A DNA stretch of 64,000 nt from Diphasiastrum complanatum (taxonomy: Eukaryota > Streptophyta > Lycopodiopsida > Lycopodiales > Lycopodiaceae), in the NCBI GenBank assembly GCA_029204225.1, contig CM055095.1, positions 45,805,446-45,869,445 on the forward strand, given 5' to 3'. The notes beneath the pieces were generated by a model. It searched no databases. It was not told the origin of the DNA and saw only the letters and a list, made by a program, of their open reading frames with translations. Position numbers and translations under genes: made by a program. Each line of letters begins with the position of its first letter. Position 1 is the first letter of the stretch. This document shows positions 2,399 through 45,067 of the stretch, piece after piece.

Positions 2399-2445
2399 CT
2401 CTCTCTCTCTCTCTCTCTCTCTCTCTCTCTCTCTCTCTCTCTCTC
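2399..2445 (+). repeat. (CT)n microsatellite, LINE junction
   Basis: Pure CT tract of about 47 bases joining the 3' end of one LINE to the 5' end of the next (CCGCGATGG). Confidence 0.98.
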
Positions 2446-2510
2446 CGCGATGGTGATGGCTGTCCATCGCTGATCTCTCTCCCCCTCTCCCGCCGTCCTC
2501 TCCCACCTCC

Positions 2511-3702
2511 ATGGCACGCAAAACCAGGGGGAGCCCTTGCTCCCCCACTCCTCCCCACCCCCCTCCATCACCCTCTACCCCACTCCCTTCCTCCGCTCTA
2601 CCTACTGCTCCGCCCCCCTCCCTCCGCTCCACCTGCTGCTCCACCCCCCTCCTCCGCTCCACCTCCCTCCACTCCACCCGCTGCTCCGCCCCCCTCCTCC
2701 GTTTCACCTCCCTCCACTCCATCTGCTGCCCACCAGCCACCCTCCGCTCCACCTGCTGCCCACCACCCCTCCTCAGCTCCACCCGCTACCCTGCCCTACC
2801 CATCTGCTGGTTCGACCTCTTCCTCCGCTCCACCTGTTGCCCAGCCACCCTCCTCTGCTCCACCTGAGCAACAGGCCCCTCCTGCTGCGCAACAGCAATC
2901 CCACTCAAGCCCTCCCTCATCCCTTGTCCCTTCGACTCCCATCTCTACCAACGCTGCTCCAGACACCCCCTTCTTGTCTCATGCCGACTACACCACCTCC
3001 AAATCCTTCGAGAAGTTCCTAGCCTACCAACTGAAAGAACTGAAGGCAGATGTGCAAACTCTGAAACTGGAAATCATCCACCTACGCACAGAGAACCAAC
3101 AACTCCAAACAGAAATGGAAAATAAATATGCTTCCCAGCCAGAAGAAGAGACAAAGCTGAAGATTCAAGATCTGGAACAGCAACTGAGCCAGCACAAAGA
3201 ATCGACCAAAACATGGGCTTCTATCATCACCAACAACAAAGCTACCAGCCCACCTTGGACAGCCTATGGCGGAAGTAAGTCTCCCCCCTTTTCATCATTC
3301 ATTTCCACTACTCTTACGGAAGAGAAACTCCGAGATTCCAAGGCTCTCAATATTAGGGTACGAGGCATCGTGGACACCCAAAATGCCATTGACGAAGCAA
3401 AAAGATTTTTATGCACTACCCTAGGACACAATGCAGATGGTTTGGATACAGCATGGCGTACTAGAAAAGACACCGCTACCTTGATCCTCCGCTTCACGTC
3501 ACATACATATCGTAAGGCAACCTTGCGGAAAAGAACCAAATTGAGAGACACCAAAACCTTCATGGATGATGACTTTACCTATATCCAAGTTGAAGAGAGA
3601 CGCCAAGCACTCCAAACCGTCAAAGCGACCGGAAGACGAGTGATCTATCGTGATGGAGTTGTTTGGTACCTCGATGGTACTGCATCCGGAAACAACCTAT
3701 AG
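2511..3702 (+). pseudogene. LINE ORF1 protein (family A), frameshifted
   Basis: The likely start is ATG 2511 (MARKTRGSP), because family B ORF1 starts MAPKKKEG and M1b ORF1 starts MAPPPRAP at the same place. A frameshift in the long proline-rich segment moves the protein into the frame that ends at TAG 3700-3702. After the low-complexity region come a coiled coil (about 3000-3230, with heptad-like LKADVQTLKLEIIHLRTEN) and an L1-like RNA-binding region. Visible blocks there are ALNIRVRGI, ADGLDTAWR, ATLILRF, FMDDDFTYI and GRRVIYRDG. The order matches coiled coil, RRM and C-terminal domain of L1 ORF1p, a trimeric RNA chaperone that packages LINE RNA. I see no CCHC knuckle or DUF4283. The terminating TAG is in frame with ORF2. 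Confidence 0.8.
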
Positions 3703-6700
3703 GAAATTGGGGTCCCCGGGCATGGGAGCATCCCAGGATCCCCTCCACACCACCTACATCTTGGAATATGGAACTGTAATGGCATACACTCATCATCCAC
3801 GGCTGGAGATCTTACCGACTTCATCACAGACAGAGATATACTATTTTTTATGGAGACACACGAGAGCCCAGAGAGAGGACTACCCACATTTGCAGGTTAC
3901 AGATGGGATTCAGTTTATAGGACAGAGACTCGATCAGCGGGTGGCAGAGGTTCGGGTGGAGTTGCATGTCTTTATCGAGAGTCACTACAACCAGCTATAG
4001 AGTTTCTCCGACATGATGCACAAGCACGATACATATGGGCTCATATCACTGGGCGAGCTATCGGTTTGGATAGGGATCTCTTCATTGTTGCCTGCTACTT
4101 CCCTCCAGAGTCCTCCTCCTTTGCAGACGGATCAGGCTCTCCTTACACTGATCTCTCCGCAGACATTGTCAGATTTACAGATCGGGGTTATGTCCTTCTC
4201 ACTGGCGACTTTAATGCCAGGACTGCTACCAGACAGGTGGATTTCCACGACACTGATGACATATTACGTACACGAGCTATTGATTGGGAGGACATTGGCA
4301 TCACCAGGAGCTCAGAGGATATGATGGGCCCTATCACGAGTTATGGAGAGTACCTTCTACAGATGGGTGAGGCTCAAGAGTTCGCCATTTACAATGGCCT
4401 GGCTTGCTGGCCACATTCTAGCAGATTCACTCGCTATCCACATAGCGGAGGACACAGTGTTGTCGACTATCTCATGGGGTCACCAACTTTTATCCCACTT
4501 ATGTCTGATTTCCACATTCTTCCCCCACTACCCTTTCCGATCAATCCTTCCTTTCTTTCAGTATGGGCTCCATCCCGACTTCCCAACCACCCATTATTCC
4601 ATCCATCTCTCGTGAACCCAAATACACTTTTGATCGCTCTCACATCAAGACATACCAGGAGGCCGTCAGTTCATTTCTTTGTCATTTTCCCCACCACATG
4701 TCGTTGGAAACACAAGCTATCTTCCTTACCACTTCACTACATACCGCTGCATCATTTTCCTTTCCCTCCAAACCACATCGACGCCCACCTACTTCGTCAC
4801 ACCCTATCCGACCTCCCTGGTTTGACGCCGAGTGTCGTATCCTCCATCTTCAAGTCACCCAAGCTCGATTGCATAATACACACCTTCTTCCTGCAGCTCG
4901 TCGATCTTTCCATTATGCCCTCCGACGGAAGAAACGGACGTACGAAACTCAAAAAGGAAAAAGCTTAGTCGATTCCCTTTGCAATTCCTCTTCCGGTGCC
5001 TTCTGGAGAGAATTCATCTCCCGTACCCCACCTCCTCCCCTCACTGACCTTCGTACCTGGACTACATATGCCACTACCTTATATACTGCACCCACGGACA
5101 CACCCATCTCCATTTCTCCCCGACCGACTACTTTCACTTTCTTCACCCCGGACATGGTTCTGACTGCCATCAAAAGACTGAAAACCCGTCGCACTCGTGA
5201 TATTGACGACCTTGAATCCGAACTATTAATCCACGCTGCAGATACACTTTCACCGACCCTAGCCACTTTGCTTATTCGAGCAGTTGTCTCCGGCTTCCCT
5301 TCCTCCAGGTGTACCAACATCATCCACCCCATTCATAAAACTGGTGACCCCATGGACCCTGGTAATTATCGCACCATTATGATTGGACATATCATTGCTA
5401 AGTTATATGGCACCATCCTCCAGTCAGCAATCAGTTCTGAGGCAGAGTCTAGGAGATTACATGCATTGGGCCAGGCAGGTTTCAGAGCACACTACACCAC
5501 AGATCATATCTTCACCCTTCGGGCCATTATTGAGGAGGCTAGACACAGAAGAGAGCGGGTCTACTATTGTTTTGTTGACTTCAGGAAAGCCTTCGACTCT
5601 ATTCCACGATCCCTTCTCATTCAGCGTCTACGTGATCTTGGTTTTTCTACTGACACGATCTTGGCAGTGATGGCACTATATGAGAGTCCTTGGCTGTTTT
5701 CGGAGTGATACCGGCATCTCAGACCACATCTGGAGCAAATTGGCGTGAAACAGGGTTGTTCTCTATCCCCAACCCTGTTTGGACTATACATTGACGAGCT
5801 TGAGAGAGTTATTGAGGGATGCGATGGCACAGGTTGCAGGCTTGGGAGCATCTTGATTGCTATACTTTTATATGCGGAAGACATGGTCCTCCTATCTTCT
5901 TCCAGAGAGGGATTACAGTGATAGCTAGACAGTCTTCATGCCTTCTGCAGTAGATGGGAATTGGGGGTTAACATATTGAAAACCAAAGTTATGGTTTTCA
6001 ACACATCGAGAGCTTTTATGCAGCGCCAGGAACTCATCTTGGATGGGCAACCCTTGGAGGTTGTATCTTCTTACACTTACCTTGGCGTGCTTTTTACAGG
6101 CCCTATCTTTGGCATGCGACAGGCAGCCTCCGCCAGACTTGGGAAGGGTCACGCCTCCCTTGTCCAATTAGAGCGTTTCTGTTTCAGACGGTTTATTCGA
6201 GATGCCCCGAGTAAATATCAGCTTTTTGATACTCTCGTTACTCCCACATTCCTATATGCAGCAGAGGTATGGTGTGTGGGTCTTACATCATCGGATTGGG
6301 CCAGTATTTCACGATTGCAGGTTCTCATGCTATCTCGGATGATATGGGCTAAGCCATCTGTCCCACATCAGATTATCCTAACAGAGTTCGCAGTCCCTCC
6401 CATACAGCTATCCGCCATCTTCCAGCTTATTCTATATATTCAGCGTATTATGACGTTACCCACAGGTGAGCAGAGATACGTACAGACGGCACTTGCCTCC
6501 TCGCGAGACCTTTATGATCAGGGACATCGACTATCATGGTTCTCTCAGGCCTCCCGAATACTAGATACACTTGGGATTTCTATCACAGACCTTCCATTGG
6601 GCACCCATGAGTATATCAGACGCTTTCTATATAGAGCATACCTGAGCCGGACATGGCAGGGACAGCTCGAGGTCAAGCCCGACTATTACAGGACACTTTC

Positions 6701-44000: not shown

Positions 44001-44615
44001 GTCAAGCTACATTATTATGGCACACATCTTTTACGGCTGGACGTTTCGGGCTTGCCTATTCTTCCAGTTTATCTTACACAGACGCTATCTTTTGGTCTGA
44101 GATATCGTATAGGACAGCTTCGAGTCTCTTCTCATCAGCTTGCTATCGAGACAGGTAGATACACAGACACTCCCAGATTGCAGCGGATATGTCAGCTTTG
44201 TTCTCTTCAGGAGGTGGAAGATGAGTTTCATTTCATCTTTCGCTGCCCAGTATACTATGAGATTAGAGGACGATACCATTGTTTATACCGAGATATTCCC
44301 CTCACGTTGAGCTCCTTCCTCGAGTATCCAGATGCTAGATGTGTGGGTCTTCTTTTGAGAGAGATGTATATTTTATGAGCTTCACTTCTACCTACGCTCT
44401 CAGATATGGATTCCAGTCAGGCTCACATTACTCAGTTCTTCCAGAAGCGAGACAGAGTGGATATTTCGGTTGCGGATTTTGACGTCCCCGTCCGAAGATC
44501 GAAGACACAGAGAGTTTCGGCTCGATCCAGTGCTACTAGATCTTCATACGCCTCCCACCAGCCTACATCACGACCCACTACTACCATCACTCATTACTTT
44601 CAGCTTGCTCGTAGC
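41067..44615 (+). pseudogene. LINE ORF2 (copy B2), nonsense codon removes the tail
   Basis: All endonuclease and RT motifs match B1, and the Leu codon missing in B1 is present here (VPRHLLFQRL). A C-to-T change makes CGA into TGA at 44376-44378. The protein (1,087 residues counted from 41115) stops after the knuckle and before the PCNA-box-like QAHITQFF. The remaining 70 codons (44406-44618) stay open and near-identical to B1. The UAG context downstream of ORF1 is identical to B1. Confidence 0.92.
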
Positions 44616-44806
44616 TAGTTTCCTCCGCGGAGCAGGAGGTTAAGCTCTTGCTTTGTACCCTCACCAGCTGGTGGTCAAGCTTGGATACTTTTTCTCTTAG
44701 AGACAGAGAGATCGATATTTTAGTTTTAGTTTTACTGTCTTTTCATTGGTAAATAAGTCCTTATGCGGACAATGCTTCTCACATTTTGTACTCTCTTTTG
44801 TCTTAT

Positions 44807-44861
44807 GTGCCCCTGGGCACCAAAAGACGTTAATAATAATAATTCTAATTCTAATTCTAAT
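44807..44861 (+). promoter_or_regulatory. LINE 3' hairpin end (copy B2)
   Basis: Identical to B1: GTGCCCCTGGGCAC (44807-44820), then GACGTTAATAATAATAATTC and CTAATT repeats. Confidence 0.7.
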
Positions 44862-45067
44862 TCTCTCTCTCTCTCTCTCTCTCTCTCTCTCTCTCTCTCT
44901 CTCTCTCTCTCTCTCTCTCTCTCTCTCTCTCTCTCTCTCTCTCTCTCTCTCTCTCTCTCTCTCTCTCTCTCTCTCTCTCTCTCTCTCTCTCTCTCTCTCT
45001 CTCTCTCTCTCTCTCTCTCTCTCTCTCTCTCTCTCTCTCTCTCTCTCTCTCTCTCTCTCTCTCTCTC
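44862..45067 (+). repeat. (CT)n microsatellite after LINE B2
   Basis: Pure CT tract of about 206 bases, the longest in the window, joining LINE B2 to the inverted hAT copy. Confidence 0.98.

Follow-up and report, generated by a model that had tools for sequence, protein, structure and literature searches.

What places the copies of a long interspersed nuclear element (LINE) family beside CT repeats at nearly all of their junctions: does the element insert into such repeats, or does it make them? This question is raised by a 64,000-nt stretch of the clubmoss Diphasiastrum complanatum (assembly GCA_029204225.1, contig CM055095.1, forward-strand positions 45,805,446 to 45,869,445; hereafter, the window). 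Our analysis confirmed that LINEs and CT runs are associated in one orientation within this window, and insertion into the CT runs is well supported here. We consider it likely that the copies belong to an L1-type plant LINE family with (CT)n/(GA)n microsatellites as its insertion target, entered in a single orientation, and with a pyrimidine tail that renews the landing sites. This specificity for CT may extend across the genome.

LINE sequence was identified by RVT_1 and Exo_endo_phos matches and by tblastn and blastn. This analysis uncovered 13 copies or pieces of one family, where the original prediction, made from the sequence alone, had counted at least twelve: six form a plus-strand array, six form a minus-strand array, and one is solitary. 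The copies and CT runs, with the open reading frames (ORFs) and untranslated region (UTR) where relevant, are as follows.

~2140-2389, plus: LINE copy c1, a fragment of the 3' UTR that includes the hairpin; 5' boundary approximate
2390-2445, plus: CT run at the c1/c2 junction
2446-7557, plus: LINE copy c2, full length, with broken reading frames
7558-7701, plus: pure CT run, 144 nt
7702-9120, plus: LINE copy c3, 5'-truncated in ORF2, directly at CT
9121-9192, plus: CT run, 72 nt
9193-9815, plus: LINE copy c4, 5'-truncated at CT, 3' end without hairpin
9816-9865, plus: CT run, 50 nt
9866-10061, plus: LINE copy c5, an internal ORF2 fragment
10062-10120, plus: CT run, 59 nt (52 pure)
10121-15011, plus: LINE copy LA, with ORF1 (10311-11219) and ORF2 (11268-14768) both open
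15012-15091, plus: CT run, 80 nt, downstream of a (TAATTC)n linker
16247-16307, plus: CT run without LINE
16762-17114, minus: LINE copy m6, 5'-truncated beside CT; 3' tail short and CT-rich
17115-17130, minus: CT run (the plus strand reads GA)
17131-21550, minus: LINE copy m5, decayed, with traces of ORF1 and ORF2
21551-21562, minus: CT run, 12 nt, downstream of (TTC)n
21563-22073, minus: LINE copy m4, 5'-truncated at CT, in the element's 3' part
22074-22126, minus: CT run, 53 nt
22127-25282, minus: LINE copy m3, 5'-truncated in ORF2 at CT
25283-25360, minus: CT run, 78 nt
25361-28662, minus: LINE copy m2, 5'-truncated at CT, in the endonuclease region
28663-28682, minus: CT run, 20 nt
28684-28903, minus: LINE copy m1, 3' part
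34238-34935, minus: LINE copy m1, 5' part, separated from the 3' part by a copia element
39977-40062, plus: CT run 5' of LB, 86 nt (80 pure)
40063-44861, plus: LINE copy LB, solitary, with the ORF2 endonuclease-reverse transcriptase at 41115-44378
44800-44828, plus: hairpin at the 3' end of LB, one of the window's 11
44862-45067, plus: CT run 3' of LB, 206 nt, pure

All 13 junction CT runs of the original prediction are present and start within 3 bases of where it had put them. Its minus-strand array does lie at 16761-28888, but reaches further than that, since m1 extends to ~34935 and is split by the copia element at 28904-34237. In addition, c3 carries a foreign insert of ~455 bp after ~7734.

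We counted an end as bordered by CT if it lay no more than 12 nt from a run of at least 12 nt with CT on the LINE sense strand. Such same-sense runs were found at 23 of the 26 LINE ends (11 of 13 at the 5' side, 12 of 13 at the 3' side) and opposite-sense runs at none of the 26, which bears out the claim that CT stands on the LINE sense strand on both sides. At the 5' side of m1, which abuts an LTR (long terminal repeat)-like repeat at 34936, CT cannot be judged, and the short, CT-rich 3' tail of m6 (CTTTCTTTCTTTCTCTCTC) has a longest pure run of 8 nt. Altogether, 19 CT/GA runs of at least 12 nt occur in the window: 13 at LINE ends, 2 in LINE 5' leaders (10183 and 40120), and 4 elsewhere (16247; 29118 and 34086, of 13 nt each, in the copia LTRs; and 46397). 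Among the runs of at least 40 nt, 10 of 11 are at LINE ends. The tract at 16247-16307 had been described as the single unoccupied one; it is indeed without LINE, but (GA)13 at 46397-46422 is unoccupied as well.

Circular shifting of the runs (20,000 shifts) placed CT at a mean of 0.31 of the 26 ends; one shift reached 23, and since offset 0 was allowed, it may be the identity. This control rules out a chance association of LINEs with CT. The 26 ends are not independent, because neighboring copies in an array have runs in common and take over the array's orientation, and they represent only three loci. As for the other two retroelements, the copia element and a small LTR-like element, none of their four ends has CT, so the possibility that they also sit at CT was rejected.

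The solitary copy LB is the most telling. It has 86 nt of CT upstream and 206 nt downstream, and the 2.9 kb ahead of it (37050-39976) gave no LINE match in blastn or tblastn. No target duplication was seen outside the CT, the 30-nt outer flanks of LB sharing a direct repeat of no more than 4 nt. LA and LB are 99.54% alike over 4808 columns and have a common (TAATTC)n linker, which is followed by 80 nt of CT in LA and 206 nt in LB; upstream, the runs measure 59 and 86 nt. Because run lengths differ between such near-identical copies, and CT also stands at truncated 5' ends, CT as a fixed internal piece of the element is ruled out: the tracts are neither of similar length nor confined to one end, as the original prediction had reasoned that a piece of the internal template would be. 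Furthermore, seven 5'-truncated copies (c3, c4, c5, m2, m3, m4, and m6) begin at CT, at differing positions of the element, with recognized homology starting within a few bases of CT in c3, c4, m2, m3, and m4 and within ~20 nt in c5 and m6. The truncation points fall at ORF2 residues ~895 (c3), ~993 (c4), ~189 (m2), and ~313 (m3). It is the CT on both sides of LB, the CT at 5' truncation points, the fixed orientation, and the differing run lengths of near-identical copies that argue for insertion into CT.

The anatomy of the element is consistent with an L1-like LINE, as judged from its endonuclease-reverse transcriptase (RT) ORF2, a 3' hairpin ahead of the CT, and an ORF1 whose predicted model may correspond to L1 ORF1p with its coiled coil, RRM, and C-terminal domain. 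LB ORF2 encodes an apurinic-type endonuclease followed by RT (PF03372, E 3.2e-14; PF00078, E 1.3e-33). LA is the one copy whose ORFs are open with catalytic motifs, the ORF2 motifs being WNCNG, ETH, GDFN, SDH, and YADD. For ORF1, the best Pfam match (E 0.013) missed the cut-off, and the PDB sequence search gave no match either (best E 0.25); with the RT, a PDB sequence search did not separate L1 from R2. The zf-RVT domain (PF13966), which typically follows RT in the L1 lineages of flowering plants, had no match in LA or LB ORF2 at E 0.001; it scored E 0.19 in the relative P0001 and E 2.4e-08 in P0098. No poly(A) tail was found at the 3' ends, which pass into CT-rich DNA. The window holds 11 3' hairpins, each with CT-rich DNA after it (11 of 11), and a covariance model built from them and from the relative L001 (see below) detected no further hairpin in the window. 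In the hairpin alignment, 92.7% of cells are paired, and the covariation score is 0.209 versus 0.114 in shuffled alignments; it was equaled by 0 of 500 shuffles, and slid controls were lower. The element thus has a conserved 3' stem-loop, as stringent-type LINEs do, which the reverse transcriptase may recognize.

We also observed a PCNA-binding-like motif (Q..IT.FF) at residue 1101 of LA ORF2 (14568-14591), ~75 residues past the CCHC motif. A similar motif occurs in 5 of the 6 other window copies examined (c3 is without it) and in 13 of 20 near relatives (CCHC is also absent in 4 of the 7 without the motif), versus 3 of 122 other matches of at least 1000 amino acids. In human L1, according to the accessible part of PMC10830420, the PIP (PCNA-interacting protein) box sits between endonuclease and RT; the position in LA differs, since the human motif precedes RT and that of LA follows CCHC.

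Several further observations concern the ends of copies. The 5' leaders of LA (10121-10286) and LB (40063-40135) do not align, and from 10287 and 40136 onward the two copies are 99.5% alike. At 10061 and 19247, junctions in different copies start at an identical ORF2 spot (...ATCCACC), one being joined to CT and the other to sequence 76 bases further on. In c4 and c5 (9193-10061), the 3' side reaches a CT run without a hairpin, as though these copies had lost their ends and been rejoined at CT.

The position of the family among its relatives was assessed with an RT tree of 75 rows, for which 225 sequences were thinned to 113 at 62% identity, ten chosen rows were restored where missing, and every second row without a name was then dropped. 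A quick method was used with P0098, a zf-RVT protein, set as outgroup, and hence the tree is no test of the relation to plant L1. The five rows from the window group together (Shimodaira-Hasegawa-like approximate likelihood ratio test support, 99). Nearest to this group are proteins without names and P0128, which L001 encodes. A group containing a Taxus protein branches next, followed by others that include Chlorella; the Chlorella vulgaris proteins, which may or may not be Zepp, are on a neighboring branch, and Ruditapes is further off. RT identity between subfamilies is 53-56% (LB versus m3 and c2), and the CT pattern is common to them. The most alike named LINE match is an endonuclease piece in a D. 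complanatum gene model (59% over 8%). Of 26 pattern matches on bacterial genome contigs, one, L001, codes for a relative; on viral contigs, two protein scans confirmed no relative and one pattern scan found none. L001, the only relative readable as DNA, is a contig binned with a Trichormus metagenome-assembled genome. The fern Azolla is host to Trichormus azollae, and L001 is presumably of Azolla origin. Its hairpin is kept and is followed by TTTTCTTTCTTTCTCCC.

We postulate that the ORF2 endonuclease would nick the GA strand within a CT run, and that the freed GA 3' end would pair with the element RNA at its pyrimidine-rich tail, which is situated just 3' of the hairpin that the reverse transcriptase would recognize. 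Target-primed reverse transcription would then copy the RNA and often end early, leaving a 5' truncation. CT would remain on both sides of the insert, with the tail and slippage keeping or lengthening the run, so that a next element could land, and repeated rounds would yield head-to-tail arrays of mixed subfamilies. The original prediction that the element's own CT tails serve as landing sites would indeed explain such arrays, the renewal itself being a conjectured step. We see roughly even chances that a clubmoss-lineage L1-type group has been specialized on CT long enough for subfamilies about half alike in RT to share the habit, and that it propagates its own target, seeding an ever-growing, one-way array, since each insertion would leave CT on both sides.

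A number of points weigh against insertion into CT as the whole explanation. The data come from one 64-kb window with three loci, and only LB is a clean test of a pre-existing target, because CT upstream of a copy within an array can be the previous copy's tail. The 5' junction of c1 is without CT. So is the truncated 5' junction of L001, and the specificity is therefore not necessarily common to the wider lineage; the proposal of a CT-targeting plant lineage accordingly stands for insertion in this window and need not extend to this distant relative. Linkers recur across separate copies, with (TTC)n in m2 and m4 and TTTC units in c1, m3, and m6; together with (TAATTC)n, they speak against a pure target, since they imply that the RNA carries part of the CT-rich tail. 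This suggests an element RNA with a pyrimidine tail, and CT is probably target plus part of that tail rather than target alone. The CT runs may also have lengthened once the copies were in place. Finally, the hairpin shows only modest covariation. RNAalifold gives it a covariation term of 0.03, its doubly changed pairs were equaled in number by 11 of 500 shuffles and its pair types by 490 of 500, and L001, as a single RNA, folds no better than shuffles (z -0.08).

Given the shared linkers, it is conceivable that the element makes the microsatellite, i.e., that a CT tail carried by the RNA is lengthened by slippage after otherwise non-specific insertion and that arrays form as new copies enter earlier tails or reach them by template jumping. 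The fern-associated relative, with a pyrimidine tail and no CT upstream, fits this, and lepidopteran RTE elements generate simple sequence repeats (SSRs) in such a way (PMC2887409; this and the papers below are cited from the accessible parts of their text). However, the RTE repeat sits at the 3' end, between target duplications (PMC2887409), whereas LB has 86 nt of CT upstream, with no LINE match in the preceding 2.9 kb and no duplication outside CT, and a single jumping event poorly explains why unequally decayed subfamilies alternate within one array. We therefore regard this explanation as rather improbable.

Nested arrays of mostly 5'-truncated copies are also known for Zepp (PMC8226300, PMC3446292), and new copies might recognize element or chromatin features of existing ones, with CT being incidental. 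We give such self-targeting very little credence, as the junctions fall in CT, not in element sequence, and the solitary LB lies in CT with no neighboring copy. Recombination is another candidate: exchange between CT runs could have assembled scattered copies, with the runs expanding after insertion. In its favor are c4 and c5, whose ends lack the hairpin and look as though they had been cut and joined to CT, and the differing 5' leaders of LA and LB, but it leaves unexplained why CT was first at both ends and why LB and both arrays share a single orientation relative to CT, and we think it very unlikely. Insertion into CT runs, combined with a pyrimidine tail, is the reading that we prefer.

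Kojima and Fujiwara reportedly described in 2004 the animal LINEs Kibi, specific for (TC)n, and Koshi, specific for (TTC)n, both of the Tx1 clade, and to our knowledge the hosts of microsatellite-specific LINEs are all animals. Zepp has a poly(A) tail. Togen of fish, at (TG)n, and some HERO families are microsatellite-specific as well (PMC4640811). Like these elements, the clubmoss LINE lies inside a simple repeat, in this window; it shares an apurinic-type endonuclease with the Tx1 clade and differs in this from Togen and HERO, which are restriction-like endonuclease elements (PMC4640811). Any kinship with Tx1 is tentative, the likeness being one of insertion habit and the tree holding no labeled Tx1 sequence. 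Target-specific LINEs are known chiefly from animals, with others, Utopia among them, occurring in amoebozoa and oomycetes (PMC4640811). In green algae, Zepp and ZeppL form nested arrays made mostly of 3' ends (PMC8226300). The clubmoss arrays resemble them in being head-to-tail and nested, with mostly 5'-truncated copies in a green-lineage host, but Zepp and ZeppL are described as targeting existing copies and forming one cluster per chromosome (PMC3446292, PMC8226300), unlike the CT sites and solitary copy seen here. Lepidopteran RTEs likewise have many 5'-truncated copies and a simple repeat past the 3' end, inside target duplications (PMC2887409); in the clubmoss the repeat is on both sides, and the outer flanks of LB share no more than 4 nt.

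Among plant elements, the maize LINE1-1_ZM group comprises L1 LINEs with a stringent 3' stem-loop (PMC3747384), which the conserved stem-loop close to the end of the clubmoss element resembles. The latter departs from plant L1 in lacking a zf-RVT match and in having a CT tail where poly(A), the L1 rule (PMC9033089, PMC3747384), is usual. A review of land-plant transposable elements (TEs) gives, in its accessible part, L1 and RTE as the only plant LINE lineages (PMC9033089). According to a 2025 review, microsatellites often surround plant and human TEs and may act as landing pads (PMC12477314), so the general idea of such landing pads for plant TEs is already in print. No plant LINE specific for one microsatellite was among the literature matches listed, in one case 15 of 1,563, a coverage that mostly leaves out the subscription literature; microsatellite targeting is thus a known behavior that is apparently undescribed for a plant LINE. 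If our reading is true, microsatellite targeting occurs in a plant, the growth and persistence of CT runs find an explanation, and the family offers a simple test case of a LINE whose tail and target are one sequence. SSR markers in such a genome may then be LINE-borne.

The window also contains other repeats.

Left edge of the window: RT-RNase H piece, probably gypsy
28904-34237: copia element splitting m1, with LTRs at 28904-29269 and 33867-34237
~34936-37049: small LTR-like element

Named matches to the copia element, among the best 120 of 4955, include Sesamum, Tanacetum, and Vigna. At 55335-55683 there is a long tandem repeat, GT-rich and degenerate, that no LINE adjoins. At 45246-50075, inverted repeat arms that are 90-96% complementary surround a DUF659 reading frame, a combination that we take to be perhaps a hAT-like element.

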